Positions 7,902 to 39,272 of a DNA stretch of 41,598 nt are shown piece by piece. The notes under the pieces were generated by a model. The model ran no database searches, had not been told where the DNA came from, and was given only the letters and a program-made list of their open reading frames with translations. Each line of letters starts with the position of its first letter. Within the stretch, counting starts at the first letter, position 1. This stretch comes from a virus. The stretch spans positions 1 to 41,598 of IMG/VR virus record IMGVR_UViG_3300007754_001006. The stretch is one strand, 5' to 3'. The translations under genes were made by a program, and so were the position numbers.

Positions 7902-8874
7902 AATTTTTAGAAGAACAGTAAAAGACCGTAGACGCGGTGCTAGTTGGGAACTTCTACAACATATGGCCGAAGGTATTCGTGCTTGTGGAGATAATCCTAT
8001 TATAGTTAACGAACATAAAACTGGAGATTGGTCAGCTAACGAAATGGAACCTACTGCAAAAATTGGTTGTATGTTTGGCTATGGAGGTACAAATCAAATG
8101 CATCATACTAAAGGACGTAGACGAGATTTAGTTGAACGTGCAAAGAAAAAAGGCATTTACATTATTACATTTGACGGTGGTATATTATCTAGTTTTGGAA
8201 ATACAATAACAGATCCTAATCACCACTGGCGTGTAGCATTGTACTCTCCTATGAGAAATGGAAATTTTTTAAGTGATAATAGCCCGCCTGATAGGTGGGA
8301 ACATATGAAAAAAATATGGAATATAAAATATGAACCATGGAGAAAATCTAATCCAGAAGATCCTATATTATTTGTATTACAACCAAAAGATAATTGGAGT
8401 ATGAACGAATTAGATCCAATTGATTGGTTTAACGATGTATATAAAAAATTAAGACCTTTAACAAAAAGAAAATTTTTAGTACGTCCCCATCCAAATCATA
8501 TGGCGGCAATGGACAACAGAAAAGAAGAGTTTCCAAAAGATGTTGAAGTTATAATAGGACAAAAATTCTTTAGTGGCGACGAGAAAAAGTACTACAGATT
8601 TAATTTTCAAAATGCATTAAATAATTGTCATGCTGTTATATCTCACAACTCTACTGCTACCATTGATTCCTGCATCCGTGGCGTCCCTACCTTTGTTACA
8701 TCAGATCTTGCTATTTGTTGGCCTGTTGCAAACACTGATCTTTTAAAAATAGAATCACCTATATATCCAGATAGAACACAATGGGTTTATGACTTAGGTT
8801 ATAAACAATGGACAGAAGAAGAAATTAAAAATGGTACAGTGCTTAAACGTTTTAAAGAAAAATTAGGATTATAA
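7891..8874 (+). CDS. GT-B-like surface-polysaccharide protein (paralogue 3)
   Basis: A 327-aa protein, the longest of the four paralogues. It has an N-terminal Rossmann-like half with [13 protein letters not shown], then [12 protein letters not shown], a [11 protein letters not shown] strand-loop (RPHP is typical of capsule/CDP-glycerol-type GT-B domains), [23 protein letters not shown], and the ending [20 protein letters not shown] with the following acidic residue is the expected nucleotide-binding site. Its stop overlaps the ferredoxin start by one base, so the two are coupled. The precise activity is unknown. Confidence 0.65.
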
Positions 8875-9209
8875 TGACTTATATTATTAACGACAAATGT
8901 ATTAAATGTAAACTAATGGATTGTGTAGAAGTATGTCCTGTCGATTGTTTCTACGAAGGAGAGAATATGTTGGCCATTAATCCCAACGAGTGTATAGACT
9001 GTGGGGTATGTGAACCTGAATGTCCAATAGATGCAATAGAACCAGATACTAATGAAGATGCAAGTAGCTGGGTTGACCATAATCAAAAATATAGTGAAAT
9101 ATGGCCACGAATTACTAAAAAAGGAAAGCCGCCCGAAGATGAAGCAAAATGGCGAGACGTTCCGGATAAGTTTAAACACTTTAGTGAAAAACCCGGACAA
9201 GGAAGTTAA
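8874..9209 (+). CDS. fdxA: 7Fe FdxA-type ferredoxin
   Basis: A 111-aa low-potential electron carrier with the cysteine pattern of [3Fe-4S][4Fe-4S] ferredoxins such as Azotobacter FdI. The cysteines are C9, C12, C17, C21 and C25, then C40, C43, C46 and C50, each run ending in CP ([16 protein letters not shown]). The C-terminal tail ([20 protein letters not shown]) also fits the FdxA family, so it looks full-length and intact. It is coupled to the GT-B-like gene before it and sits 2 bases from the asparagine synthetase after it. In a phage it could feed electrons to the radical SAM or oxygenase enzymes encoded elsewhere in the window. That link is inference. Confidence 0.9.
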
Positions 9210-9211
9210 TA

Positions 9212-10936
9212 ATGTGTGGAATATACGGCATAACTGAAAAAAATTATGGATTTATAAATCAATATATTCAAATATGTAAACATCGAGGACCAAACGGAGA
9301 AGGTATTTGGAATGATGATGATGTTACTTTAGGACATAATCTTTTAAGCATCATGGCTGAACCAAATAAATCTACACAACCTTGGATAACACCTAAAGGA
9401 AATATACTTGTATACAACGGAGAAATTTTTAATTACTACGAACTTAAAGCAAAATACAAACAATTTATAGACACTACAGGTTGCGATACCGAACTACTTG
9501 CTTGGGGATTAGATAACTTTGATTTAAATTTTATAGACGAAATTGATTCTATGCATGGCTTTGCATATTACAACATAAAGAAAAAAGAAATTATTCTTAG
9601 CAGAGACCATGCAGGAATTAAACCTGTATTCTATGCTGAAATAAAACAAGGATTAGTGTTTGGTTCTGAAATAAAAGGTATGTTGAGTAAAGTACCTAAT
9701 GCAAGAAAAATGGATAAACTTGCTCTTAGTTTCATGAGTAGAACCGGAATTAATGCTTTGCGTAATACTTTCTTTACAGGAATTAAAAAATTACTTGCCG
9801 GAGAAACAATTGTATATGACATTACAAATAAAAAAATAAAACAACGACATCGAATATTTGTAAAACCAAACAGCAATAAAAAATTTAATCCCAACGAATT
9901 TAGACAAATGGCACATAAAACAGTAAAAATGTGTAGTATCGGACGAAGAAAAATTGGTGTATTTTTAAGTGGTGGACTGGATTCTAGTTTAGTTGCATAC
10001 GAATTAGGAAAAGTAAAAGATAAAGTTAATTCATTTACAAACAAAATGTATCCAAATGTTAAAGTAGATGAAGATTATAATGAAGATGCAAATTGTGCCT
10101 TAATACTTGCAAAAAAAGAAAACTTTAACCACGTCGAGATACAAATTACTCCTGAAAATTTTATGGAGTCATGGGATGATTCAATATACTATATGGAACA
10201 ACCTGTTTATAATCCAAGTATGTCTATGTATTGTTATACAAATAAATTTTTATCTAATAACGGTATTGTAGTAACCATGGCAGGTGATATGGGAGATGAA
10301 ATACTTGCAGGATATCCAAAATATTGGAAAATGAAAAAAATATTAAATTCACTATCGTCTTGGGACGACATTTTAAAACACTGGTTAAAAAGAATTAAAA
10401 GACCATTACAATTAACTGATACACCAGTTAATGATGAAGAATTACTTGCTGAATTTAAAAAATGTTATAGCGGAGAATTGTGGAATCCTGACGATCCTAT
10501 TGCATCTTATATGGCTTTAGATTGTGTTGCACAAGTTCCAGAAGAAATGTTTAATCGAAATGACAAGTATGGAATGGCATATAGTATGGAAGGTAGGTTT
10601 CCTCTTGCTACAAAATTATTCATGCAATATTGTTTGGACATTCCGTCTACAATAAAAATGGGTGTAGACAAAAGCGATACAAAAATTTTAACAAAAATTG
10701 CATATAAAGGACTTATGCCTGACGCAATAATTAATAAAGGAAAAACCGGATGGACGGTACCTGTAGGACACTGGTTAACAACAAATGTTAATGAGAACCT
10801 TAAAAGTTTTTATGTAAATGCTATCGGGGACAACAGTAAATTAAATATTATTAAAGCAAGTCAAAAAGCTGGAAAGGCGATTGTACCTGCATGGATAGTT
10901 AAAGACTGGATTAAAAAATACAAAATGTATTTTTAA
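9212..10936 (+). CDS. asnB: Glutamine-hydrolysing asparagine synthetase / amidotransferase
   Basis: A 574-aa AsnB-family enzyme that couples glutamine hydrolysis to ATP-dependent amidation of a carboxylate. Cys2 of MCGIYG is the N-terminal nucleophile. RGPNGEG and YNGEIFNY form the glutamine pocket, and SRDHAGIKPV is the usual linker. The synthetase half has the pyrophosphate loop FLSGGLDSSL (253-259) and MAGDMGDEILAG. Length matches bacterial AsnB (about 550-630 aa). All key residues appear present. It may supply asparagine to the infected cell or, as in O-antigen clusters, amidate a sugar acid. The glycosyltransferase operon context favours the latter slightly. Confidence 0.9.
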   Translation: MCGIYGITEKNYGFINQYIQICKHRGPNGEGIWNDDDVTLGHNLLSIMAEPNKSTQPWITPKGNILVYNGEIFNYYELKAKYKQFIDTTGCDTELLAWGLDNFDLNFIDEIDSMHGFAYYNIKKKEIILSRDHAGIKPVFYAEIKQGLVFGSEIKGMLSKVPNARKMDKLALSFMSRTGINALRNTFFTGIKKLLAGETIVYDITNKKIKQRHRIFVKPNSNKKFNPNEFRQMAHKTVKMCSIGRRKIGVFLSGGLDSSLVAYELGKVKDKVNSFTNKMYPNVKVDEDYNEDANCALILAKKENFNHVEIQITPENFMESWDDSIYYMEQPVYNPSMSMYCYTNKFLSNNGIVVTMAGDMGDEILAGYPKYWKMKKILNSLSSWDDILKHWLKRIKRPLQLTDTPVNDEELLAEFKKCYSGELWNPDDPIASYMALDCVAQVPEEMFNRNDKYGMAYSMEGRFPLATKLFMQYCLDIPSTIKMGVDKSDTKILTKIAYKGLMPDAIINKGKTGWTVPVGHWLTTNVNENLKSFYVNAIGDNSKLNIIKASQKAGKAIVPAWIVKDWIKKYKMYF

Positions 10937-15298: not shown

Positions 15299-16749
15299 GT
15301 TCATGTAAATTGGTAATTAAAGATGAAGTTAATGTTAAATTTGAAAATTTAGATTTAAAGTGGCGTCAAAAACTTTCTAATAAATTTAAATATCAAGTTC
15401 CTTATGCTTATCATTTGCCGGCTGTAAAGCTAGGTAGATGGGACGGCAAGATAAGTTTTTTTAGTTTAGGTGGCACTACATATCTTAACCTAGTAGACCA
15501 AATACTTCCAATACTTGAAGCAGGTGGAGTATATGTTGAACTTGACGATAAAAGAACAAAACATAATTTTGAATTTAAATTAATAGATAAAAATTATCTA
15601 TCAGATATAACATGGCCAGACAATCATCCTTGTGCTGGACAACCAATTGTTTTACGTGACTACCAAGTAGAAACAATTAATAAATTTTTAGAAGCACCAC
15701 AAAGCCTACAAGAAATTGCCACTGGTGCAGGTAAAACAATTATTACTGCCGCACTTTGTAAGTTAGTTGAACCTTATGGACGTACACTAACAATTGTACC
15801 TAATAAAAGTTTAGTAACACAAACAGAAGAGGATTTTCTTGCGTGTAATTTAGATACAGGAGTTTATTTTGGTGACAGAAAAGAAGTAGGTAGATATAAT
15901 ACAATTGCAACCTGGCAATCAATTAATGTTCTTGAGAAAAAAGATAAAATAGAATTTAAAGAAGTAATGCAAGGAATTCAAACAATAATAGTTGACGAGG
16001 TACATATGGCAAAAGCAGATGTACTAAAAAGATTACTAACAGGAGCATTTGCAAATGCAGGTATACGTTGGGGATTAACAGGAACAATACCAAAAGAAGA
16101 TTATGAATTTTACGGAATAAAATGTTCTTTAGGAGACGTAACACATAGAATTCCTGCAAAGGAATTACAAGACAAAGGTGTATTGGCTAAATGTCATGTT
16201 AATGTTTTACAAACACAAGACCATCCAATGTTTAAAAGTTACCCAGAAGAATTAAAATGGCTTACAACTGATGATACTAGAATAACTTGGGTAGCACAAA
16301 CAATTAGTGATATTGCAAGTTCAGGCAACACACTTATATTAGTCGATAGAATTTCTGCTGGGAATTTACTTGAAACGAAAATAAAAGATTCAGTTTTTAT
16401 ATCCGGAGCAACTAAAACATTAGACAGAAAGGAACATTATGATGAAGTGTCTATTGCAAAAAGTAAAATTATTATAGCAACATACGGAGTTGCTAGTGTT
16501 GGAATTAATATTCCTAGGATATTCAATCTTGTTCTTATTGAGCCTGGTAAATCCTTTGTACGTGTAATACAAAGTATAGGACGAGGCATTCGTAAAGCAG
16601 AAGACAAGGATCATGTACAAATTTGGGATATAACTAGTAGTTGTAAGTTTGCAAAAAGACATTTAACCCAAAGGAAAAAGTTTTACAAAGAGGCAAATTA
16701 TCCGTATACTATAGAAAAAATAGATTATGAAAATCCTTACATTAGATAA
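15295..16749 (+). CDS. uvsW: UvsW-like superfamily 2 DNA helicase
   Basis: A 484-aa SF2 helicase. An N-terminal small domain includes LGRWDGKISFF, which resembles the DNA-binding UvsW N-domain. RDYQVETI is the Q-like motif, and Walker A is ATGAGKT at 142-148. The Walker B/DExH box is VDEVH (233-237), LTGTIPKE is motif III, and a C-terminal RecA domain has IQSIGRGIRKAED (motif VI with both arginines). T4 UvsW unwinds branched DNA and R-loops and helps switch from origin- to recombination-dependent replication. Length fits the family. It overlaps genes on both sides. Confidence 0.9.
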   Translation: MSSCKLVIKDEVNVKFENLDLKWRQKLSNKFKYQVPYAYHLPAVKLGRWDGKISFFSLGGTTYLNLVDQILPILEAGGVYVELDDKRTKHNFEFKLIDKNYLSDITWPDNHPCAGQPIVLRDYQVETINKFLEAPQSLQEIATGAGKTIITAALCKLVEPYGRTLTIVPNKSLVTQTEEDFLACNLDTGVYFGDRKEVGRYNTIATWQSINVLEKKDKIEFKEVMQGIQTIIVDEVHMAKADVLKRLLTGAFANAGIRWGLTGTIPKEDYEFYGIKCSLGDVTHRIPAKELQDKGVLAKCHVNVLQTQDHPMFKSYPEELKWLTTDDTRITWVAQTISDIASSGNTLILVDRISAGNLLETKIKDSVFISGATKTLDRKEHYDEVSIAKSKIIIATYGVASVGINIPRIFNLVLIEPGKSFVRVIQSIGRGIRKAEDKDHVQIWDITSSCKFAKRHLTQRKKFYKEANYPYTIEKIDYENPYIR

Positions 16750-22548: not shown

Positions 22549-23490
22549 ATGATTAGTTGGCATATTGAACCTACTAGTAAATGCACGTTAGAATGTCCTT
22601 TGTGCGATCGTACTTGGTTTTATGAAACATTTAAAAAAAGATTAATACACGAAATAAATGTTGATAACCTTGTAAATTTTTTAGGACAAAATGCAGACAT
22701 TTCATTTTGTGGAAATAATGGTGATCCAATTTATCATAACAAATTTATAGAATTATGTTCAAAATTAAAATCCAATAATTGTAAAATTTCAATTACAACA
22801 AACGGTAGTTATAGAACAATCGATTGGTGGAAAAAACTTGCACAAATACTAAATGAAACCGATAAAATTACATTTAGTATAGACGGTTTAGAAGACACAA
22901 ATCATTTATATAGAAAGAATTCTGATTGGAAAATGCTAATGGATGCTGTTCTTATTATGGCCAATTCTAATACACCCATTGTTTGGAAATTTATAGTTTT
23001 TAAACATAATCAACATCAAATAGATGAGGCCAAACAAGCAAGTAAAGACCTTGGCTTTGTTGATTTTATGTTAGAATATAGTGATCGGTGGCTTGATCAA
23101 AAAGATTTAATGCCCGATAAAAAATACGTGAACCAACATCTTACACATCAAGAAAAAGTTTTATCAGATAGCAATTATACGTTTTCTATGCGACCTAAAT
23201 GTTTAAAAAATGATTTACCAAACAACCATTTATACATTGACGCTGAAGGTAATTTTTATCCTTGTTGTTGGTTTGGTACATATAGATATAAGTTTAAAAG
23301 TTTGTTCTCACCTAAAAACGGTGATTTTAACATAGCAAAATATTCTAGTGCAGACATTTTAAACAATGAGAAAATAAAAGATTTTTTTAATACAACAAAA
23401 GACTTTAACTCTGCTCACGAATGTTGTAAAATACAATGTGGAGGAAAATATTCGAAGAAGATTTGGGAATATGGAGTAAACAATGGCTGA
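22549..23490 (+). CDS. Radical SAM protein with C-terminal SPASM-like cysteines
   Basis: A 313-aa enzyme with the canonical radical SAM cluster site C12-x3-C16-x2-C19 (KCTLECPLCD). GNNGDPI (GGE-like SAM site), ITTNGSY and KITFSIDGL follow. The C terminus carries YPCCWFG and HECCKIQCGG, a SPASM/twitch-type auxiliary Fe-S site. Members modify peptides or sugars by radical chemistry. It starts right after the oxygenase stop, and its own end overlaps gp41 by 8 bases. The substrate is unknown. Confidence 0.8.
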   Translation: MISWHIEPTSKCTLECPLCDRTWFYETFKKRLIHEINVDNLVNFLGQNADISFCGNNGDPIYHNKFIELCSKLKSNNCKISITTNGSYRTIDWWKKLAQILNETDKITFSIDGLEDTNHLYRKNSDWKMLMDAVLIMANSNTPIVWKFIVFKHNQHQIDEAKQASKDLGFVDFMLEYSDRWLDQKDLMPDKKYVNQHLTHQEKVLSDSNYTFSMRPKCLKNDLPNNHLYIDAEGNFYPCCWFGTYRYKFKSLFSPKNGDFNIAKYSSADILNNEKIKDFFNTTKDFNSAHECCKIQCGGKYSKKIWEYGVNNG

Positions 23491-25011: not shown

Positions 25012-25941
25012 ATGAAAAACATCAAATGGTTAATCGCACACCAACCGGAATATTTGTTTCTTAGAACTGCGAAAGCATTTGCAAAAATGCTTGAAAAGGT
25101 ACTCCCAGAGTACAAAATAGAGATATTGACAACTGAGCAATATCTAAAACAATCTCCAGAATTCAAAAGAGAAGATATTGTGAATTTAGTTGAAAAAAAC
25201 GAAATCCAAATGTCTCAAACTGAAGTATGGGAATTAGAAAATCATACGTATGATAAAAACTTTTTAGTTTTTGATATGCCATGGTTATTCAAAGACCACG
25301 GTCATGCTAGAAGAGTTTTAGAAGGACCAATTGGACAAGCAATCAACTCTAGACTTGTAAAACAAACAGGTGTTAGAGGATTAGCATACACATACTCAGG
25401 TGGTTACAGAACAGTTGGTATGGAAAACACACCAATTAAAAACTTATCTGATTTAGCAGATAAAACAATCAGAGTAAACGGAAACCCAATTACTCAAGAA
25501 TTTTGGGCAAACTTTACAAATACTACGAGAGTTAAAACACCAAGACTAGGTGGAGAATTAAGTGATCTAGAACTTCCAAAAGGCGTTGACGGAAAAGATA
25601 CAACATATATTAGATTCCAAAATGCTAAAAGTTTCTTGAAGTCAGAACACTCTTTATTCTTAACAGACATTCTTATTAGTGATGCGTTCTTCCAAAGTTT
25701 ATCTAAAGAAGAACAAGATATCTTTACTAACACTGCCTACAAAGCGGCAAGATTAGAAAGAAAATGGTCACAAGAAGATGCTGAACAGTTTGAAAAAACT
25801 GCTAAAGAAAGAGGTTGTGAAATTGTTGAATTAAGCGAAGAAGATAAAACAACAATGAAACAAGAAGCCGAAGAAATTTATACTAAATGGGATAAGAAAT
25901 TTAGCCCAGGTCTTTTAGACGGTATAGCAAAATTACAGTAA
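25012..25941 (+). CDS. dctP: TRAP transporter DctP-like solute-binding protein without signal peptide
   Basis: A 309-aa protein with the fold signatures of TRAP (tripartite ATP-independent periplasmic) substrate-binding proteins. It has an N-terminal strand then a long helix (RTAKAFAKMLEKVLPEYKIEIL), GGYRTVGMENTPIKNLSDLADKTIRV (conserved Arg and the PIKxxxDLxGxKIRV core), NPITQEFWANF, and FQNAKSFLKSEHSLFLTDIL. Real family members begin with a signal peptide; here residue 1 leads straight into the mature fold. The start is secured by an AAGGAG at 24999-25004. The gene is monocistronic with an intrinsic terminator. No DctQ or DctM partner is seen. Confidence 0.8.
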   Translation: MKNIKWLIAHQPEYLFLRTAKAFAKMLEKVLPEYKIEILTTEQYLKQSPEFKREDIVNLVEKNEIQMSQTEVWELENHTYDKNFLVFDMPWLFKDHGHARRVLEGPIGQAINSRLVKQTGVRGLAYTYSGGYRTVGMENTPIKNLSDLADKTIRVNGNPITQEFWANFTNTTRVKTPRLGGELSDLELPKGVDGKDTTYIRFQNAKSFLKSEHSLFLTDILISDAFFQSLSKEEQDIFTNTAYKAARLERKWSQEDAEQFEKTAKERGCEIVELSEEDKTTMKQEAEEIYTKWDKKFSPGLLDGIAKLQ

Positions 25942-25956
25942 ATTAATTTACAAATT

Positions 25957-25982
25957 AAGGCGGCTTTATGTCGCCTTTTTTT
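25957..25982 (+). terminator. Rho-independent terminator after the DctP-like gene
   Basis: AAGGCG (25957-25962) pairs with CGCCTT (25972-25977) across a 9-base loop and runs into a seven-base T tract ending at 25982. It is the clearest intrinsic terminator in the window and closes the single-gene DctP-like unit 15 bases after its stop. Confidence 0.85.
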
Positions 25983-26014
25983 GTGGCGGTGGCTAATTGC
26001 ATTTAAATATCCAT

Positions 26015-26659
26015 ATGCAATTACAAACGTTATGGTCAGATTTTTCTACAAAGCAACTAGACTATATTACCAACATTATTAAGAACAGTGATGCTAACTC
26101 CATATGTGAACTTGGCACATTTGTTGGTACTAGTGCTAAACATATTTGGGATGGTATTAAAGACACCGACAAAAAATTATACCTTGTTGACAACTATTTT
26201 TTCCTACCTAAAAAATATAGATCGCATTTTTTTAACACTGTAAAGAATTCTATAGACAAAGACACAAAAAACATTATTCCTATATTACAAAGTAGCCACA
26301 AGTACGATTGGACACAACACGATTTTATAATTTTTGGTCATCATGATTACGATCATATGCTACCTGACTTTAATATACTTTTACAAAGTAATGTAAAATA
26401 CGCAATAATTGATATTAATTCTAGGTGTTTTGATAGATTTAATTTATTATTACACTCGGTTGTAACACAAGAATCTAATTTAAAATTACAATATTATATT
26501 GATGGCATTTTTGTTTTAGGTAGAGAAAAATTAAAGTGTACATTACCTACTAAAAATAAATTATTTTTTCATCAACAAATTAAGTGTATGCCAAAAGGAA
26601 CCGGAACATATTTACAAGCCATCAAAGATATACAAAATATGTTAGGAATTGAAAAATGA
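26015..26659 (+). CDS. Putative class I SAM-dependent methyltransferase
   Basis: A 214-aa protein starting at ATG 26015; a TTG at 25997 is also in frame. It has SAM-binding motif I, SICELGTFVGTSAKHIWDG, and a following acidic strand KKLYLVDNYFF, as in CmcI-like and class I methyltransferases. A HHDYDHMLPDFN segment follows, with a later DINSR strand. The target is unknown. Its stop overlaps the next gene by 4 bases, so it forms a coupled three-gene unit with the oxygenase and the asparagine-synthetase-like gene. Confidence 0.6.
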   Translation: MQLQTLWSDFSTKQLDYITNIIKNSDANSICELGTFVGTSAKHIWDGIKDTDKKLYLVDNYFFLPKKYRSHFFNTVKNSIDKDTKNIIPILQSSHKYDWTQHDFIIFGHHDYDHMLPDFNILLQSNVKYAIIDINSRCFDRFNLLLHSVVTQESNLKLQYYIDGIFVLGREKLKCTLPTKNKLFFHQQIKCMPKGTGTYLQAIKDIQNMLGIEK

Positions 26660-27207
26660 TATTAAAAGAATATATCGAATGGACTAAAACTATAAACGAT
26701 TATGAAACTGCACCCAACGTTGCAAATACAAAGGCCTGGGGTTTTAAAAAATTAAAAAAAGTAAATATTCCGGAAATAAAAATAGAAAATGCTACAGAAG
26801 GAGATGAAGGCTATTGGAGTTTTAGAAACGAAAAACTAACAGAATGGGCAAGAGAACAATGGGAAGATTTAACATTTCTCGAGGCAAAAATACAGATACA
26901 AACCCCCGGGCAAGTCTGTAAACCACATTTAGATTTTTTAGGATATTACTTAGAAGATATATGTATGGCACATCCAGGTTTACTAAAACTAAAACATTCA
27001 TTAGATGCTCCAGCAATAGATATATGGCGTATGTTTATTGCCGTAGAAGATCGGGTTTGGGGACAACGATTTGTAATTAATGACTGGGATTGGATATGGA
27101 AAGCAGGAGATTGTATACGATTAAACAACTGGCAAGCACTCCATTGGACGAAAAATACAAGTTCGGTCGACAGAACAATTATTAAAGTAACAGGAGTTAA
27201 ATTTTGA
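26656..27207 (+). CDS. Putative 2OG-Fe(II) / aspartyl-beta-hydroxylase-like oxygenase
   Basis: A 183-aa protein with the layout of aspartyl/asparaginyl beta-hydroxylase-type oxygenases. A first ligand segment CKPHLDFLGYY (HxD, about residues 93-103) is followed by IWRMFIAVEDR and GQRFVIND. A later WKAGDCIRLNNWQALHWTKN supplies the distal histidine, and a final VDRTIIKVTG carries the Arg that would bind 2-oxoglutarate. All three iron ligands and the arginine can be placed. It is coupled to genes on both sides by 4-base overlaps. Its substrate is unknown. Confidence 0.7.
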   Translation: MILKEYIEWTKTINDYETAPNVANTKAWGFKKLKKVNIPEIKIENATEGDEGYWSFRNEKLTEWAREQWEDLTFLEAKIQIQTPGQVCKPHLDFLGYYLEDICMAHPGLLKLKHSLDAPAIDIWRMFIAVEDRVWGQRFVINDWDWIWKAGDCIRLNNWQALHWTKNTSSVDRTIIKVTGVKF

Positions 27208-28784
27208 AATTTTTTATTTCTAATAAAGAAAAATTAACTAACAAACACGGACAGTGGTATTGGTGGGCAGATAAAAAGTGTAATGTAACACAAAACGAAG
27301 AACACCTTGTAATTTACTCTGGATATGTTATTGAAGAACCTATAGATGAAATTGTTTTTCGAGATCCCCATTTATTAGAAAATTCAAACGGTACATTTTG
27401 GGCAGTAATTTTAACAAAAACATCTGTAAAAGTTATAGTTGATTACTTCTGTCAATCTAAAATTTTTTATCGACAAACAGACAGAATTGAAATTACAAAC
27501 GCAATACATTTGTTTCCGTTTAATTCAAAAGATATTGATATGCCGGAAGTAATGAATAGACTTAATGTACCAGAAAAAGAACGAAATTATAAAGCATTAA
27601 CAACGTTTGAACGTTGGGAACCATTTATTTTAGACTGGGCCTCATACACTGACATAGCTCCTAGTTTAGGAATAAGACAATATTCTCCGTCCAAATGTAA
27701 AACTATTTTTAAAAATACTTTTATATTAGAACCCGATCATTGTTTAGAAATTGTTGATAATATTCTTAAGATTAAAAGAATTCATAACACACACAAGTCA
27801 ATTCTTAATGCATTAAGTCCAACGATACCGGCATTTAATACAAGTACAGAAATTGAAGAATATATTCATTTTTGTATGGATAGTCATGCATCAGTTATCA
27901 AACAAAATTATAAAAATATTACTAGCAGTATAAGTGAAGGCATTGATTCTGTTTTACAGGATCAATATTTTCCTGATTCTAAAAAAATTATGTATCACTT
28001 TGCTCCTTCAAATGGACCGTTTGATTACAAGCAAAAAACTAACAATAAAACAAAAAATAAAAATATACAAGTTGACCATTTTCCTTTAGACAAAGATAGC
28101 ATAAGCAAAATTGCTAGTGAAGTTATGAACGACCCTAGTTGTTTTTATTGGGATACTCTTCCCTCACAATGGCAACTTGCAAACATGAAAAGTAAACCTG
28201 ATGTTTTATTATTTGGGCAAAACGGAGACAATATGTTTATGCACAAACCGTTTTTCTATTACGAATATATGTTTGCTAAACAGATTCCAAAAAAAATATC
28301 TATACAACAAAAATTAGAAGAATTTAACAAAACACTTGACGATTTTAAGGATTGTTATTCGTCTAGAGATAATTTGTGGAGTCAACCTGTAAAAACTTGG
28401 CGAGAAGCATTCCACGACATGACTGAAGAAGAATTAATAAAAGAATTAGAATCTGACAAAGAAGATGCATGGAAAGATGATTTTGCAAGAAAAAATACGC
28501 CTGGTTTATATAATAGAGAAATTTCACACGCAGGAGATACACTAGTTACGTCTTTATATTGTGATAAAAGAATATTTTATAAAGTAATGAGTATGCCTGA
28601 GAACATTATGCTTGAAAGTATTAAAGAAGCACAAATACAAAAAAATATTTTAAAATCTAAATTTAATTACACATTTGAAACACCGTATAAAGATCAAGCA
28701 GAATTTAATGCAGTACATATAATTAAACCAATGTATATGAACGGTATGAAACACTGTTTAAAAAATCATTTACCAGATGCGTAA
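27204..28784 (+). CDS. Asparagine-synthetase-like ATP-dependent amide synthetase lacking the glutaminase Cys
   Basis: A 526-aa diverged AsnB relative. The start is TTG 27204 with AGGAG at 27192-27196. The N-terminal domain has a glutaminase-like shape (RDPHLLEN, GTFWAVILT) but no Cys at position 2, so glutamine hydrolysis is unlikely. The synthetase domain has a modified PP-loop SISEGIDSV (242-250, for SGGxDS), LLFGQNGDNMF (335-345, for GxGGDE) and SLYCDKRIFYKVMSMP (for the PFLDxRLxE block). Beta-lactam synthetase and carbapenam synthetase are such glutaminase-dead AsnB relatives. The 2OG oxygenase next door adds to that analogy. The activity is inferred. Confidence 0.65.
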   Translation: MKFFISNKEKLTNKHGQWYWWADKKCNVTQNEEHLVIYSGYVIEEPIDEIVFRDPHLLENSNGTFWAVILTKTSVKVIVDYFCQSKIFYRQTDRIEITNAIHLFPFNSKDIDMPEVMNRLNVPEKERNYKALTTFERWEPFILDWASYTDIAPSLGIRQYSPSKCKTIFKNTFILEPDHCLEIVDNILKIKRIHNTHKSILNALSPTIPAFNTSTEIEEYIHFCMDSHASVIKQNYKNITSSISEGIDSVLQDQYFPDSKKIMYHFAPSNGPFDYKQKTNNKTKNKNIQVDHFPLDKDSISKIASEVMNDPSCFYWDTLPSQWQLANMKSKPDVLLFGQNGDNMFMHKPFFYYEYMFAKQIPKKISIQQKLEEFNKTLDDFKDCYSSRDNLWSQPVKTWREAFHDMTEEELIKELESDKEDAWKDDFARKNTPGLYNREISHAGDTLVTSLYCDKRIFYKVMSMPENIMLESIKEAQIQKNILKSKFNYTFETPYKDQAEFNAVHIIKPMYMNGMKHCLKNHLPDA

Positions 28785-28895: not shown

Positions 28896-29102
28896 ATGGG
28901 TATACATCACACATATAAGTCACAAGCCGGCGAACGAAAAGCTAAAAAACAAGCTAAACAAATGGAACGCCAACGACTTTCTCGTAATAGACAACTCTTA
29001 AAACAACAACAACAAACAAATAATGACTCGTATGTCGTGCCTGATGGTGTTACACTAACACTAGATATGATAACAACTCCTAATAAAAATGGCAAAATTT
29101 AG
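28896..29102 (+). CDS. Small basic, glutamine-rich protein, 68 aa
   Basis: Not recognised. The first half is highly basic and helical (GERKAKKQAKQMERQRLSRN) followed by a QQQQ run, then a VVPDGVTLTLDMITTP tail. This suggests a nucleic-acid-binding or scaffold peptide with a short structured C terminus. A good Shine-Dalgarno and a late-type promoter precede it, and it overlaps the DUF1289 gene by 14 bases. Confidence 0.55.
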   Translation: MGIHHTYKSQAGERKAKKQAKQMERQRLSRNRQLLKQQQQTNNDSYVVPDGVTLTLDMITTPNKNGKI

Positions 29103-29277: not shown

Positions 29278-29450
29278 TAAGCAACTACACAACAAGCCTC
29301 GCCACGTATCTATATGAACGTATAGATGAACACCAAGCAAACCAGGAAGTAAGGCGTACACACCCAATGGCATGGCCAACAGGTTTGTACTTTACTACGC
29401 AACACTTGGCAAAATGGATAGAGGAGCATGATAAATCAGAGACTATTTGA
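29274..29450 (+). CDS. Small protein, 58 aa, overlapping both neighbours
   Basis: The ATG at 29274 overlaps the DUF1289 stop (ATGA). The frame runs to TGA 29448-29450, 23 bases into the radical SAM gene. The product begins MISNYTTSLATYLYERI and includes HPMAWPTGLYFTTQHLAKWIE, with a helical C terminus. The chain of overlaps, without a gap, makes it likely real. I do not recognise it. A GAGGAG inside its end serves as ribosome site for the following gene. Confidence 0.5.
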   Translation: MISNYTTSLATYLYERIDEHQANQEVRRTHPMAWPTGLYFTTQHLAKWIEEHDKSETI

Positions 29451-30459
29451 TTGGTATAAAATAGATACTAACAAAAATTTACAAATTAAAAACATATGCC
29501 CTCGACCATATGATACTCTTCTTATAGATAAAAACGGATCTTGTTATGCTTGTGAGTGTACATCTTGGTTGCCACAAAGCATAGGAAACTTACAATTAAA
29601 ATCATTAAACGAAATAATTAATTCCAAAACACACAAACACTTACAAGAGTCTGTTGCAGACGGAACTTATCGTTATTGTAATGAGCATCAATGCTCTTAT
29701 ATGAAGTCTGGTGCTGTATTGCATGGCCAGCCGGAACGCATACAGCATTTAAGACTTGCTATAGATGATAGTTGTAATTTAAGATGTCCTAGCTGTCGTA
29801 AAGGTTTAATATTTCATAAAGAAGGTTCAGCATATACATTAGGAATTAAACTTGCAGACAAAATAAACGATTGGTTATACAATTATAAACATCCAATCCA
29901 AGTCCACATAGGATCAGATGGCGATCCTTTTGCTTCACACGTATATAGACACTTCATGGAACAAACTCCAGAGCGAGATAATATAAAGTATTCCATATTA
30001 ACTAATGGACTTATGTTTAAAGAGTTTCATACTAAAGTACCTTACGTTATTAACAATTTACAAGAACTAGGTGTTAGCATAGACGGTGCAAGTAAAGAAA
30101 CATATGAAAAATTAAGACTAGGCGGCAATTGGAATAAAATTAATGAAAACCTAGACTGCATATCTGAATTAAAAGAGAAACACAATTTTAGATTTACATT
30201 ATACTTTGTTGTACAAAAAAACAACTATCACGAAATGGAAGATATTACACTGCTAGGTAAAAAATATAATGCTGATAGGGTTTGGTTGAGTCGAATACAA
30301 GACTGGAATACATTTGAAAATTTTGAAGAACATAACATATTCAACACTGCACATCCATTAAATTCTGAATATCTAAAACAACTAAACAAGTTAGAAGAAT
30401 TTTCTAAAACTTCAAACGGTGATATTTTAGAAGAAGCAACCTTAAGACAACTTCATTAA
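29428..30459 (+). CDS. Radical SAM protein with SPASM-like cysteines ahead of the core
   Basis: A 343-aa protein in which the auxiliary cysteine-rich segment comes first. C24, C39, C42, C44, C84 and C89 lie in a SPASM/twitch-like region (GSCYACECTSW, RYCNEHQCS). The radical SAM site follows at C116-x3-C120-x2-C123 (DSCNLRCPSC). GSDGDPFASH (SAM site), ILTNGLM and LGVSIDGASKETYEKLR complete the barrel. The start has GAGGAG 7 bases upstream. The substrate is unknown; SPASM-type enzymes commonly modify peptides. The 3' end overlaps the minus-strand oxygenase-like gene. Confidence 0.75.
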   Translation: MINQRLFDWYKIDTNKNLQIKNICPRPYDTLLIDKNGSCYACECTSWLPQSIGNLQLKSLNEIINSKTHKHLQESVADGTYRYCNEHQCSYMKSGAVLHGQPERIQHLRLAIDDSCNLRCPSCRKGLIFHKEGSAYTLGIKLADKINDWLYNYKHPIQVHIGSDGDPFASHVYRHFMEQTPERDNIKYSILTNGLMFKEFHTKVPYVINNLQELGVSIDGASKETYEKLRLGGNWNKINENLDCISELKEKHNFRFTLYFVVQKNNYHEMEDITLLGKKYNADRVWLSRIQDWNTFENFEEHNIFNTAHPLNSEYLKQLNKLEEFSKTSNGDILEEATLRQLH

Positions 30460-31065
30460 ATTAAACGGGTCTTTTAATGGCATAGTAGCCAACATAATTC
30501 TTGGATACTTTGCTTGTGGACCTGGCATCACGCGATGTGGTAGATAACTGTTAAACACTATAGGACACGTATGCATATGATAACGTTCACGCAACGGATA
30601 TAAATTAGCTACGGTATTATGTATTGCATCGAGATTATAACAATACTCTCCGTCGGTAAATTCATTTAAAATTTCAGGAAACTCACGCAACTTCTCATCA
30701 GGTATATCATACCATTCAGTATATACATCCTCAGTATTGTATATAGGAAAATTTATTTTAAAGTTTCTGTCGGGTGCTCCATGATGCAAAACAAATCCTT
30801 GTGTCATTGCTTCTGTAAGAACTCCTACTGTGATTTCTTGAATTGGTATTTTTACGTATTGAAAATATTCAATTAAAGCTGGAGCACTGCGAGCCAAGTC
30901 TTTGTAATCAATTTTCATCCAGAACCCTTTTGACGTGCGGTCTTCGAGAAAGCCAGTATTAGTGCGTATCCATTGCATTACTTGTTGTTTTATATCTTCG
31001 AGATTGTATACAGGTAACTCATGAACTGCTTTGTATTGTGTTTGATTTCCAAGGTAATCTATCAT
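30442..31065 (-). CDS. Putative cupin/2OG-oxygenase-like protein, 207 aa
   Basis: I set the start at ATG 31065 (MIDYLGNQ), because the longer frame from 31149 crosses the promoter region and the divergent gene. The protein has FVLHHGAPDRNFKINFPIYN (possible HxA/HxxP ligand segment), a YNLDAIHNTVANLYPLRERYHMHTCP middle, and NSYLPHRVMPGPQ with a late His-Arg. This order resembles aspartyl-hydroxylase-like jelly-rolls, but the iron ligands are not certain. A late-type box lies just upstream. Confidence 0.45.
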   Translation of the reverse strand: MIDYLGNQTQYKAVHELPVYNLEDIKQQVMQWIRTNTGFLEDRTSKGFWMKIDYKDLARSAPALIEYFQYVKIPIQEITVGVLTEAMTQGFVLHHGAPDRNFKINFPIYNTEDVYTEWYDIPDEKLREFPEILNEFTDGEYCYNLDAIHNTVANLYPLRERYHMHTCPIVFNSYLPHRVMPGPQAKYPRIMLATMPLKDPFNLMKLS

Positions 31066-31073
31066 AAAAAAAA

Positions 31074-31081
31074 TATTTATT
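31074..31081 (-). promoter_or_regulatory. Late-type promoter box (AATAAATA) on the minus strand
   Basis: Read on the minus strand, 31081-31074 is AATAAATA, one base off TATAAATA. It lies 8 bases upstream of the ATG at 31065, the spacing also seen for the exact late box at 7051-7058. Confidence 0.45.
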
Positions 31082-31114
31082 GCACTACATTTGACAATTA
31101 AATATTCAGCAATC

Positions 31115-31627
31115 ATGAAAATAGCAATAACAGGACATAAACGCGGCATTGGTAAAGCATTTGCGGAACAATTATCTACCCGTGGACACGAAATAATTGG
31201 TATATCGCGAAGTGATGGAGAGAATATACGTAGAACAATTCACACAGCATCTATAATAGAACCTTGCGATTTTTTTATTAACAATGCAATAAGTTTTTAT
31301 GCTCAGACTGAATTGTTATTTGAAGTTTGGCACCGGTGGCAACCTTACAAAGATGTTCATTATATCTGGAATATATCAACAAAAATATGTGCTGAGTCAC
31401 GTGATTTTGAAATAAACGGACTAACCATGAGAGAGTCAATGCAATATCGCAATCAAAAAATGAGCTTGGAACTTGCTCATGAACAATTAAATGCACAGGC
31501 CAGCAATATAAAGATGTCTTTGATCCGTCCTGGCAGTGTCAACACACAAAAGTTTAGTCCTTCTGACAGTATTTCGGCTGAGGCATACGTCAAGCAAGTG
31601 TTAGAAAACCAAGGAATATTATTATAA
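31115..31627 (+). CDS. Short-chain dehydrogenase/reductase-like protein
   Basis: A 170-aa Rossmann protein with the SDR dinucleotide motif KIAITGHKRGIGKAFAEQL at the N terminus (TGxxxGIG), FFINNAISFY (the NNAG-like segment, altered), and LIRPGSVNT (the PG motif). SDRs are usually about 250 aa, so this is a short form. Catalytic Tyr/Lys may be YRNQK near residue 112. I start it at ATG 31115; a TTG at 31091 is possible. It probably reduces or oxidises a sugar or similar. The next gene starts directly after its stop. Confidence 0.65.
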   Translation: MKIAITGHKRGIGKAFAEQLSTRGHEIIGISRSDGENIRRTIHTASIIEPCDFFINNAISFYAQTELLFEVWHRWQPYKDVHYIWNISTKICAESRDFEINGLTMRESMQYRNQKMSLELAHEQLNAQASNIKMSLIRPGSVNTQKFSPSDSISAEAYVKQVLENQGILL

Positions 31628-32170
31628 ATGTTGTCTAGTTGGGGCAATTTATTAAACACGGATTGTCATGTTATAAAAATTAAAGGCTTATACGTTTATC
31701 CAATATTTAAAAATGGATCAACGCAACTACTTGCACAAAAAGATAAACTAATTGTTAATAGTAATATTAAAAAATTAAAAAATATTGTTGTTATTTTAAG
31801 AGATCCTACAGAAAGATTTATAGCCGGAGTCAACAAAGTAGCTTTTGTTAAAAAAACAACAGTTACTAAAACAATGACAAAAATAAAAAACAACAAACTA
31901 ATTGATAGACATTTTATTCCACAATTTATTTGGTTGTTACATTTAAAAAAATATTTTGATGGTGATGTAGAATTAACACCAATGTATACATTAGACAGAT
32001 TATTAACAAACAAAACTAGAGACGAAAGCTGGCCGAAAAATAAAATTACTGTTAATCCTATAAAAAAATTTATCAACATCGACGAAAAAATGATACAAAA
32101 ATATATGCATAAGAATATAAAACTAAAAACTATTATAAAGGATTTAATAAATGTTTTGCCCAAGAATTAA
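31628..32170 (+). CDS. Sulfotransferase-like protein (second copy)
   Basis: A 180-aa protein with a YVYPIFKNGSTQLL loop (residues 23-36), matching the K-x-G-S/T-T 5'-PAPS-binding element, and IVVILRDPTERFIAGVN (residues 53-69), matching the 3'-phosphate element with R and S/G. It has a different sequence from the one at 1816-2403, so they are separate acquisitions rather than recent duplicates. It overlaps the radical SAM reading frame by 20 bases (ATG 32151). The substrate is unknown. Confidence 0.65.
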   Translation: MLSSWGNLLNTDCHVIKIKGLYVYPIFKNGSTQLLAQKDKLIVNSNIKKLKNIVVILRDPTERFIAGVNKVAFVKKTTVTKTMTKIKNNKLIDRHFIPQFIWLLHLKKYFDGDVELTPMYTLDRLLTNKTRDESWPKNKITVNPIKKFINIDEKMIQKYMHKNIKLKTIIKDLINVLPKN

Positions 32171-33230
32171 TCATTTTGTTAGATTAAATGACAATGGCAC
32201 AATTGGTAAATGTGGGCATATGACAAATGCAAAGTGATTTAAAACTTTTAAAGACTTACATAAAAGCCAATGGCTTAAAAAAATTGAACTTGATATGACG
32301 TTAGATGCTTGGCCAGAAGAATGTATAAGATGTAAACAAACCGAAGAAGTAACTGGAGAAAGTATTAGAACTAAAAGTATCGAACGACATAAAATATTAC
32401 ATCCACTTAAAGAAGATTATCTAGTTGTTGGTGGAGTATTAGATAACGTATGCAATAGTGCTTGTCAAACTTGTAATGCAAATCTTTCAACTAAAATAGG
32501 AAGTTTAGAAAAAAATTATATAAAAACAAACAATCTTCAAACGTTTTTTGGGTTACCACAACACAGAATTTTAGAAGTAGATGTTAATGGCGGAGAACCT
32601 ACTGCTAGTAAAAATTATAAAATTTTATTAAAAAACTTACCATCTAATACAAAAATAGTAAGAATGAATACTAACGGTTCAAGAATGATTAATGAATTAA
32701 TTGATTTATTAGAAAATAAAATTATGGTTATTGTTACAATAAGTTTTGATGGTACTGAAAACGTGCATGATTACGTACGGTGGCCAATTAAATGGGAAAA
32801 ATTTATAAAAACAGTTGCAAAATATAAAAAACTACAAAAACAATACAAACTACTTAAATTAGATTTCTGGACTACTGTAAGTTGTTTAAATGTTGGAGAC
32901 TTTCCAAATATTATAAAATATGCATCAGATAATAATATTAATCATGCATGGGCATTTTTAAACACGCCCGACGTATTAAATGTAAAATATAAAAATCCAT
33001 TTACTGTTGATGCAAAAATAGATTTTTTATCAAGCAACAATAAAATGTTACACGAAATGGCTACACATATAGCAATCGAATCCGATAATACAAATGGTGG
33101 TGTAATTGATGAACAACCTAACTTAGAACTGTTTATTAAAAAACAAGACTATCTTAGAAAAATTAATATTAATGATTATTTTAATTTTGATGAGAATCTA
33201 TTCAATAGCAATTCAGCAAACCCTTTATGA
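32151..33230 (+). pseudogene. Radical SAM protein gene with an in-frame TGA at codon 29
   Basis: From ATG 32151 the frame reads MFCPRINHFVRLNDNGTIGK and continues to KCGHMTNAK, meets TGA at 32235-32237, then continues in the same frame (FKTFKDLHKSQWLKKIELD) into a 311-aa stretch beginning MTLDAWPEEC. The two parts look like one protein: the N-terminal cysteine-rich segment flows into C58/C61 and the radical SAM site C101-x3-C105-x2-C108 (NVCNSACQTCN). DVNGGEPTASKN is the SAM-binding GGE motif. Either a nonsense mutation, a sequencing error or readthrough. Without readthrough only the shortened form from 32295 could be made. Confidence 0.7.
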
Positions 33231-37009: not shown

Positions 37010-38056
37010 ATGCAACCATTTGAACAATCTCCTTACTGGAAAACCTTACAACCTATCATTGAGAGTGGAGCAATTCGGGCCGCTATTGACGGCGTTTACA
37101 AATATCCTTATAGAATAAATTTATATCCTGGCGCTAGTTGTATGTTCAAATGTTTATATTGTGGACGAAATTATGATGCTGTTATAAAGAAAAGTGAAAA
37201 TGTATACAAACAAATTATAGAACAAGACGATGGTAAAGATAAGAATCGATTCGGTATTACCGGAGGATTAGAGCCTCTTACCAGTCCTTACATTAATGAT
37301 ATATGTAAAGATTTAGTTGATAAAGGATATAAATCTAGAATGATTACTAATGGTTTTTTATTAAATGATAAAATACTATCAAAAAATCCTTACATAAATT
37401 CCTTAGATCATTTAAGAATATCTTTATATGGATTAGATAACGAAGAATACGTAGCAACGACCAGACATAACAAAGGGTGGCAAATTGTAAAAGAAAACTT
37501 AACCAAGTATAATAAACGAGATGACAAAACTAAATTATTTTTAAACTATGTTCTATTACCAAAACATTTTGAAAATTTACAAAGCATTATAAATTATATA
37601 CAAGATATAGGCGGTACAAATAATTTGTCGTTAAGAGAAGACTATACATTCCAATATGAAATAAATGAACGAAATAAAATCCAGGATACACTATTGACAT
37701 TTGACGAACGTATTAAAAAAATGAACACAACTGTTGATTACGGCTACGCTCTTCAAGACGCTATGAATGGTAAAGACACGCATCTAATGAGAGTAACCTA
37801 TAATGAATTGAGTCCAAAACAAGCTCCACAAATAAAAATCTGTGTAGTTCCTAATGGTAACATTTATTCATACATGGCGGCTGGATTTCCGGATAGGCCG
37901 GGAGCATTACGTCATGCATTAGGTAATGTTAATAATAGTTCTATTGAACAAGAATTGAAGAAGCAAGTTGAGGTTGCACCTAGAGAAGATGATATGCAAT
38001 ACTTAGATGCATACAATCATTTAATTTTAAAATATATTCATGAGAAAAGTTCCTAA
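37010..38056 (+). CDS. Radical SAM protein, single-cluster type
   Basis: A 348-aa radical SAM protein with C44-x3-C48-x2-C51 (GASCMFKCLYCGRNY), a GITGGLEPLTSPY SAM-binding segment, MITNGFLL and LRISLYGLDNEEY. The C-terminal IKICVVPNGNIYSYMAAGFP resembles a truncated SPASM core with only one clear cysteine. The substrate is unknown; the motif spacing would allow a sugar or amino-acid target. It overlaps the next radical SAM gene by 17 bases, starting a three-gene run. Confidence 0.75.
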   Translation: MQPFEQSPYWKTLQPIIESGAIRAAIDGVYKYPYRINLYPGASCMFKCLYCGRNYDAVIKKSENVYKQIIEQDDGKDKNRFGITGGLEPLTSPYINDICKDLVDKGYKSRMITNGFLLNDKILSKNPYINSLDHLRISLYGLDNEEYVATTRHNKGWQIVKENLTKYNKRDDKTKLFLNYVLLPKHFENLQSIINYIQDIGGTNNLSLREDYTFQYEINERNKIQDTLLTFDERIKKMNTTVDYGYALQDAMNGKDTHLMRVTYNELSPKQAPQIKICVVPNGNIYSYMAAGFPDRPGALRHALGNVNNSSIEQELKKQVEVAPREDDMQYLDAYNHLILKYIHEKSS

Positions 38057-39272
38057 AACATATTGCCGAATGCCTTTTAAACAAGTTATTGTAGACAAAT
38101 CTGGCCTAATGAAATTTTGTTATTATAATTTTTTTCCATGGAGAACTAACGCAAAACACGACTATACTTTTCCTGACGATAAAAAACATATTAACGATGT
38201 TGACGACATTAATGATTGGTTTCATGGTTCATATATGAACCAAGTGCGTAAATCAATGCTAGAAGGTAAACCTTTAAAAGAATGTATTGGTTGTTATCAA
38301 TGTGAGGAACGCGGTGAACAATCAATTAGACAAGAAACTAATTACAAATATTTTGAAAAAAATAAAGATGAACCACTAGACAACGTCAAATTAGAAACTT
38401 TAAACTTAAAATTTGGAAACAAATGTAACTTGAAATGTAAAATGTGTGACCCGTGGACTAGTAGTAAATTACAAACAGAGTGGGAAGAAATAGGTTGGGA
38501 ATACAATGATCCAATTGTAAAAAGTTCAACTAAAGATAAAGTTGATTATAACTGGCCAACAAAAGAAAAAAATATTGAAAAATTAAAAGCCATGGCTAAA
38601 CATTACAAACATATTCATTTCTCTGGTGGCGAACCACTATTACATAAAACGTTATTTGATTGGATGCAACATTGTATTGACAACAACTATGCAAAAAATA
38701 TTGATTTTGAGATTGTAACAAACGGAACAGTTATACCTCCTCAATTCATTACAATGGCTGAAAAGTTTAATTCTGTTGCAATAATTTTGGGTATAGATGG
38801 TTTGGATAATACATTTAACTATATTAGATATCCCGGAAACTTTGATATTGTTGAACGGAACGCAAACTTTTATCATAACTGGTTAAGAAATAAACCTAAC
38901 TCTAGATTTACTATTAATTTTTGTTTACAAGTTTTTAATTTGCACCACCTTAGTAATTTTATAGAACGATATACTCCTCTTTGTATTAATTCTAAACCCG
39001 GAATAATTTACTTAGAAGATCCAGCTTATATGTCTTATAATCTATTAAATGCCAACGATATTAAACAACAAATAAAAAAATTATTAATATTAAAACAATC
39101 ATCTAACAACGAACCCATGAACGAAATTATACAAGAATGTTTAACTAAACTATCTACTACAAAACAAAACTGGGCCGGCTGGAAAGAATTAAAACAATTT
39201 ATTACAACGCAAGACAACCACAGGAGTATTAATATTGCAAATTATATTCCCGAACTAGCTCATTATTTTTAA
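38040..39272 (+). CDS. Twitch-domain radical SAM protein (tandem paralogue A)
   Basis: A 410-aa protein with the auxiliary cluster segment at the N terminus (C9, C27, C82, C85, C88: TYCRMPF, KFCYYNFF, ECIGCYQCEE) and the radical SAM site at C129-x3-C133-x2-C136 (NKCNLKCKMCDP). HFSGGEPLLHK is the GGE motif, and VTNGTVIP and ILGIDGLDNTFNYIRYPG follow. The C-terminal third is unassigned. It is paralogous along most of its length to the next gene. Enzymes of this layout occur in marine phages, but their substrates are not established as far as I know. Confidence 0.8.
   Translation: MRKVPKTYCRMPFKQVIVDKSGLMKFCYYNFFPWRTNAKHDYTFPDDKKHINDVDDINDWFHGSYMNQVRKSMLEGKPLKECIGCYQCEERGEQSIRQETNYKYFEKNKDEPLDNVKLETLNLKFGNKCNLKCKMCDPWTSSKLQTEWEEIGWEYNDPIVKSSTKDKVDYNWPTKEKNIEKLKAMAKHYKHIHFSGGEPLLHKTLFDWMQHCIDNNYAKNIDFEIVTNGTVIPPQFITMAEKFNSVAIILGIDGLDNTFNYIRYPGNFDIVERNANFYHNWLRNKPNSRFTINFCLQVFNLHHLSNFIERYTPLCINSKPGIIYLEDPAYMSYNLLNANDIKQQIKKLLILKQSSNNEPMNEIIQECLTKLSTTKQNWAGWKELKQFITTQDNHRSINIANYIPELAHYF

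Follow-up and report, generated by a model that had tools for sequence, protein, structure and literature searches.

Asparagine synthetases of the AsnB type (PF00733 with a GATase domain) belong to a superfamily that also holds beta-lactam synthetase and CarA, both of which lack Cys2. The pathways of these two enzymes also use a 2-oxoglutarate (2OG) oxygenase, according to PMC6097109. For the nitrilobacillin pathway, PMC13060819 describes an AsnB-like nitrile synthetase, PesC, which acts on its peptide after aspartate hydroxylation and is nearly inactive without it. Here, we describe a locus, shared by a group of uncultured phages, in IMG/VR virus record IMGVR_UViG_3300007754_001006 (positions 1 to 41,598; this whole stretch of 41,598 nucleotides is called the window below), in which genes for a methyltransferase-like protein (MT), a 2OG oxygenase (OX), and a diverged AsnB relative (ASN) follow one another with short overlaps. 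The initial annotation took these three genes for a possible small-molecule or peptide-modifying unit with a synthetase akin to those for beta-lactams and carbapenams. Such a unit remains the leading class of explanation, but the three-gene operon is not what is conserved: on gene order and sequence, the constant unit is MT and OX together with a DctP-like binding protein, and ASN is its variable partner. ASN itself is a strongly altered enzyme variant, and the locus is not evidence of antibiotic synthesis. The features concerned are as follows.

25012..25941, + strand: DctP-like TRAP-type solute-binding protein (DctP), 309 aa, upstream of MT; Pfam DctP 2.5e-30
25957..25977, + strand: intrinsic terminator-like hairpin 3' of DctP, from a hairpin scan of the window
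26003..26009, + strand: TTAAATA motif, possible phage promoter of MT-OX-ASN, 12 nt before the MT start
26015..26659, + strand: MT, class-I S-adenosylmethionine (SAM) methyltransferase-like protein, 214 aa; ATG start (alternative in-frame TTG at 25997 in the list of open reading frames)
26656..27207, + strand: OX, Fe(II)/2OG oxygenase, 183 aa; HxD...H...R site, confident model
27204..28784, + strand: ASN, diverged AsnB-superfamily protein, 526 aa; TTG start; hhalign profile alignment and motifs

The coordinates and the coupling reported at the outset are confirmed, with an overlap of exactly 4 bases at both the MT/OX and the OX/ASN junction; the start codon of ASN in relatives, at the matching place in the alignment, is ATG, TTG, or GTG. 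For the counts that follow, the window and two 100%-identical records are treated as one phage, and the relatives come from viral-contig scans, which cover the contigs that share a few peptides or fit one pattern. OX was found in 15 phages. MT adjoins it in 14 of these (the exception is L031), and DctP adjoins in 12 of the 14 that can be assessed (absent from L026 and L031, with the L071 contig breaking off within MT). ASN comes after them in eight: the window's phage, L019, L009, L010 (cut), L020, L021 (cut), L022, and L027, two of them near-identical. The remaining seven (L026, L031, and L068-L072) have OX without adjacent ASN, and searches for ASN across these records, which may be fragments, came back empty. 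In a ninth phage, L051, ASN directly follows the helicase gene and no trio accompanies it. MT, OX, and ASN thus recur together outside the window, with MT and OX upstream in eight of nine ASN phages.

The trio of DctP, MT, and OX stays together in relatives that are only 34-44% identical in OX and MT. L068 and L072 have OX and MT in exchanged order, L069, L070, and L071 carry an inverted MT (in L071 cut by the contig end), and the L040 contig reads DctP-MT and then ends. In the L069 record the helicase gene, which anchors the locus elsewhere, lies ~10 kb away, so that the linkage is more than inherited synteny. It is important to note that the constant partners of OX are MT and the DctP-like protein, not ASN, and the linkage does not support the analogy first drawn with pathways in which a synthetase works beside an oxygenase.

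The same applies to the synthetase site. All seven full-length ASN members start with MK and have no Cys2, as had been noticed in the window copy, and all carry SEGIDS instead of SGGxDS in the PP-loop. In each of the seven, D[NQ]MF[ML]H[KT] replaces DE.F.GY, with Asn or Gln at the Glu position and Lys or Thr at the Tyr position, and Gln339 is invariant at the position of CarA Tyr345. The Asp-Ser of the PP-loop and the C-terminal Lys of QKNILK are kept. As a comparison set we used 15 AsnB-type proteins: 3 from this phage group, 11 from plasmids, and 1 from phage Motura, two being short (431 and 426 aa) and one (L063) lacking Cys2. Where the search pattern found the motif, two of 13 PP-loops read SSGVDS (L055 and L063), from which we conclude that the first Gly can be replaced, and none of the 13 has Glu; the Glu of DE.F.GY is present in 11 of 12, with Thr in L063. 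This last protein, from a Rhizobium johnstonii plasmid, is a Cys2-less AsnB-like protein that combines SSGVDS with SDTLFGG, and so has lost the Glu too.

According to PMC13060819, five AsnB-like enzymes have in common a Glu followed five residues later by a Tyr, and in PesC a change of the Tyr abolished activity and a change of the Glu reduced it. Judging by the spacing, the pair in DE.F.GY would correspond to Glu363/Tyr368 of that study. CarA, when aligned, is without the Glu and Tyr of DE.F.GY (GSDLLFGGI), and has SGGLDSS intact and Tyr345 in TGYGSD. We take Tyr345 to be catalytic and Glu380 to be the catalytic Glu of its dyad; a tyrosyl-glutamyl dyad is reportedly named in the title of a paper. 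The C-terminal half of ASN aligns too poorly to locate a counterpart of Glu380. With the PP-loop, the residues equated with the Glu-Tyr pair, and the CarA Tyr position all replaced, the comparison with beta-lactam synthetase fails at the synthetase site, and the parallel with beta-lactam and carbapenam synthetases drawn in the initial annotation is not supported: CarA keeps SGGLDSS and Tyr345, whereas ASN has SEGIDS and Gln. Since neither the ASN active site nor the linkage supports it, we do not favour beta-lactam synthesis, and we would caution annotators that an AsnB-like gene next to an oxygenase gene does not imply a beta-lactam.

That ASN belongs to the AsnB superfamily is a placement by sequence profile, made because the alignment far exceeds its shuffle controls. 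The window copy has no Pfam match. Using hhalign (its E-values for ASN each refer to a single pairwise comparison), a profile of seven ASN sequences aligns with the 15 AsnB-type proteins over 302 columns with an E of 6.8e-8 and a score of 68.7, compared with 28.9 (E 0.013) for the best of 200 column shuffles and 13.3 for the reversed profile. Other settings gave 462 columns and an E of 5.9e-9, pairing the PP-loop, GxxxDxxF, and TxF...L.P motifs. The alignment starts at AsnB column 51, the first stretch being missing or unrecognisable. Scores drop when ASN is split: residues 1-200 give an E of 7.4e-5, with just 29 columns aligned, and residues 205-526 give 0.001. The comparison with just the three phage AsnBs failed (E 0.59). 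Asn_synthase reaches one of six ASN members at E 0.091 and touches two near-identical ASN relatives weakly (E about 3e-4, one record each), under the cut-off. When ASN was compared with PDB sequences by phmmer and by profile, no AsnB was found. The structural check proposed with the initial annotation, an AlphaFold2 model of ASN built with five sequences, has a mean predicted local distance difference test score (pLDDT) of 34.7 and speaks neither for nor against an AsnB fold. In comparison with AsnB, then, ASN shares the superfamily, the domain order by profile, the PP-loop Asp-Ser, and the C-terminal Lys, but differs in having no Cys2, in its SEGIDS and D[NQ]MF[ML]H[KT] motifs, and in aligning only from column 51.

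The ratio of nonsynonymous to synonymous substitution rates for ASN is ~0.19 between the window copy and L003 and ~0.11 between L012 and L013, values that indicate purifying selection on a maintained gene; together with recurrence in eight phages, this argues that MT-OX-ASN is not a chance arrangement. A tblastn search with the window copy of ASN gave no matches in 50,697 phage records, nor did two genome-contig scans, in which the stretches tested were those matching a few short peptides.

For the oxygenase, residues H91xD93, H163, and R173 are invariant in 13 of 13 sequences, and the AlphaFold2 model has a pLDDT of 94.9 and a predicted template modelling score of 0.90. With HxD...H...R on a modelled double-stranded beta helix, OX belongs by sequence and predicted fold to the Fe(II)/2OG oxygenases. 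When the model was aligned with VIA-align, PiuC scored highest (Z 12.3), followed by PHD2 (11.6), prolyl-4-hydroxylases (near 11), and AspH (10.1). SnoN, SnoK, and OkaE score as high as, or near, these hydroxylases, and most of the hydroxylase rows are one protein, PHD2. OX is thus like the PiuC/prolyl-4-hydroxylase/AspH group in fold and HxD...H...R site, but differs from it in sequence (8-16% identity in the rows listed). Against a viral library, Foldseek returned phage proteins, some named aspartyl/asparaginyl/proline hydroxylase. The window copy on its own has no Pfam match; among 13 OX sequences, Asp_Arg_Hydrox is the best family (six members, best E 0.00025) and TauD is matched by two. 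Clavaminate synthase and CarC are missing from the 50 matches listed for the model, which is an absence from that list only. The window and L072 copies of OX and MT gave no tblastn matches in the 50,697 phage records.

MT is probably a class-I SAM methyltransferase, judging from the motifs [ED]xGxFxG and DNY, which are kept in 12 of 12 members. The family assignments made for MT, OX, and ASN are supported, that of MT as a methyltransferase-like protein. The DctP window copy matches Pfam DctP at 2.5e-30 and NCBIfam TRAP_S1 at 3.3e-25, above the cut-off, and 10 of 12 records have a PF03480 match above its cut-off, those of L026 and L051 having none. It shares these profiles with the solute-binding proteins of TRAP transporters; the phage copy differs, however, in that it is without an evident signal peptide and sits in a phage modification locus. 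By eye, the protein begins straight at the mature domain, with AGGAG just before the ATG, and no signal peptide is visible in 10 aligned copies, with longer alternative frames at L027 and L070. No TRAP membrane family was among the family matches of the window proteins scanned. In the 50,697 phage records, tblastn with DctP gave four weak matches (21-27% identity).

Two putative signals lie between DctP and the genes that follow. A hairpin with a T-run stands 3' of DctP in eight of nine relatives shown with a co-directional next gene (L068 is the exception); the window has four terminator-like hairpins, with 1.8 expected. Of 11 relatives shown, 10 have TTAAATA ahead of the MT or OX start, and the remaining one (L069) has MT inverted. 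In the window this motif occurs five times 10-18 nt before a gene start, with ~0.1 expected, a count that includes the MT site, after the sight of which the motif was picked. The window sites are 26003, 10937, 20067, and 31098 on the + strand and 36705 on the - strand. We assume that TTAAATA is perhaps a promoter resembling the T4 late type. With the hairpin after DctP and TTAAATA before MT, it is therefore possible that MT-OX-ASN forms its own transcription unit.

A 121,819-bp IMG/VR contig contains the window genes at 100% identity, the window being its last 41,598 bases (the AsnB/ASN offsets are equal), and genes for a gp23-type capsid protein and for a terminase lie on the same contig. Among 10 records tested, gp23 was found in two and terminase in three; where the contig includes the capsid gene, the phage group is, by sequence, gp23-type and T4-like. 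Of the best 12 among 1,887 matches, those nearest to the helicase gene just upstream come from Pseudomonas and Agrobacterium phages (45-49% identity) with genomes of 284-490 kb. PADLOC gave no matches for five proteins. Nothing on this phage locus was found in the titles and abstract openings of the open-licence literature searched.

The window also has a canonical asparagine synthetase outside the operon, directly after a ferredoxin-like gene (8874-9209).

9212..10936, + strand: canonical AsnB, 574 aa (Cys2, SGGLDSS, GDE); Pfam Asn_synthase 1.1e-43 plus GATase

Oxygenase, methyltransferase, and radical SAM genes with no assigned role are found in many phages. In the present case we lean, tentatively and at a little under an even chance, towards a phage module that modifies a small molecule, a peptide, or a protein residue, in which ASN would be a partner that is either rewired or non-catalytic. 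Its core would be the TRAP-type DctP-like protein, a SAM methyltransferase, and an AspH/prolyl-4-hydroxylase-like oxygenase. OX would hydroxylate the small molecule, peptide, or protein residue, MT might methylate the same molecule, either at the hydroxyl thus introduced or at another site, and DctP could bind the substrate or product inside the cell. ASN would be an optional partner, with a changed ATP-dependent reaction or as a non-catalytic binding or regulatory subunit; a rewired or non-catalytic role is suggested because the glutaminase nucleophile and the usual acyl-transfer residues are lost while the scaffold and Asp-Ser are kept. By analogy, the pairing of hydroxylation with an AsnB-like enzyme in PMC13060819 may serve as a precedent. 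PesC is of the same superfamily as ASN, as are the amidating enzymes, but in that account a Glu-Tyr pair is retained by PesC and by all four of its comparison enzymes, where ASN has the equated positions replaced, PesC uses glutamine, and the oxygenases are of the MNIO and HExxH types, not the OX type. No precursor peptide is established at the phage locus.

Several points weigh against such a module. L020/L021 and L070/L071 are near-identical pairs, leaving ~13 distinct OX phages, and the linkage of the trio rests on two kinds of rearrangement. In L031, OX has neither MT nor DctP nearby, and L026 has MT-OX without DctP. The MT assignment comes from motifs and sub-threshold Pfam matches: the window copy matches Methyltransf_24 at E 0.0012, under the cut-off, and among 12 members Methyltransf_24 is matched by four and Methyltransf_3 by two (E up to 0.1), with TetR_C_26 weakly in four. 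Foldseek alone places small cupins of other function first for OX (E 2.4e-5) and AspH at rank 21 (9.1e-5); we keep OX as a 2OG oxygenase despite this ranking because the metal and 2OG residues decide. Likewise, DctP appears cytosolic from an N-terminus judged by eye, and this placement, the substrate, the reaction order, and any activity of ASN or MT are points that we infer.

Other accounts of the same genes have to be weighed alongside the modifying module. ASN may be a non-catalytic pseudo-synthetase that pairs with or regulates the canonical AsnB of the same phages, which we consider rather unlikely. The Gly-to-Glu change in the PP-loop and the replaced DE.F.GY motif of all seven full-length members would fit this account, and the canonical AsnB of L027, placed between OX and ASN, overlaps the latter by 4 bases; the window's phage, G007, and G010 all have both AsnB and ASN. 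However, AsnB is also found in G015 and G016 without detected ASN, the two genes are ~16 kb apart in the window, and the Asp-Ser and QKNILK Lys that ASN keeps would be needless in a mere scaffold. It is very unlikely that ASN functions, in the manner of beta-lactam synthetase or CarA, as an ATP-dependent enzyme forming amides or lactams and that OX serves it as a tailoring oxygenase. An AsnB-superfamily protein without Cys2 does adjoin a 2OG oxygenase here, and CarA is likewise without the Glu and Tyr of DE.F.GY, but CarA retains its PP-loop and Tyr345 where ASN has SEGIDS and Gln339, and seven of the 15 OX phages have no adjacent ASN, while one phage has ASN but no OX.

The module might instead act on a protein of the phage or its host, for example during virion maturation or the takeover of the host, and not on a free small molecule. 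PHD2, P4H, and AspH fill many of the OX structural rows (mostly PHD2), and Asp_Arg_Hydrox is the best Pfam family, with six of 13 members; against this, PiuC is at the top with SnoN, SnoK, and OkaE as high or nearly so, and a constant TRAP-type binding-protein partner points to a small ligand, so that we regard a protein target as quite unlikely. It is highly improbable that the genes are ordinary cargo, unrelated auxiliary genes kept for separate reasons in a variable slot beside the helicase. The slot is variable (L051 has just ASN there, L026 has MT-OX but neither DctP nor ASN, and in L072 MT is followed by a distinct radical SAM gene), yet MT is beside OX in 14 of 15 phages and the trio persists through a strand flip and at a distance from the helicase. 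A bolder extension of the modifying module, in which ASN would found a new AsnB-superfamily family and an intracellular DctP would carry an intermediate between OX, MT, and ASN to make a metabolite or peptide mark that aids infection, seems to us unlikely. The practical value of the locus is that it is a small linked gene set, whose oxygenase, methyltransferase, and ligand-binding protein could serve to fish out the substrate, and that ASN is a natural test of the AsnB scaffold without its standard catalytic residues.

Two known systems were considered and are not favoured. For a lasso peptide, the lasso B protease that accompanies the cyclase (PF13471, Transglut_core3) was found in none of 12 records, with the control found in only three of 14 and the records possibly fragments. 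For 7-deazaguanine DNA modification, tRNA-guanine transglycosylase was found in none of 10 records, which again may be fragments; QueC was sub-threshold in one of the 10, at canonical AsnB. In Achromobacter phage Motura (L064), an AsnB-like gene lies between QueC and tRNA-guanine transglycosylase, in a 7-deazaguanine gene group. AsnB genes are present in records G007, G010, G015, and G016 as well as in the window.

Some neighbouring genes can be recorded here. The window has four radical SAM genes in 41.6 kb (22549-23490, 29428-30459, 32295-33230, and 38040-39272). Shortly upstream of the radical SAM/SPASM gene at 29428, a 68-aa basic protein (MGIHHTYKSQ..., 28896-29102) is encoded in five of 15 loci, including that of the window's phage, sometimes with a second small open reading frame in between; it may serve as a peptide substrate or be just another small protein of the phage. 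A sulfotransferase-like gene at 31628-32170 has the motifs KNGST and RDPTERF by eye and no Pfam match. On the - strand, 30442-31149 encodes a possible oxygenase-like protein with no credible Pfam match, of which L072 has a 68% identical copy and L027 a distant homologue (15630-16112, 26%) with HKD...H...R by eye.

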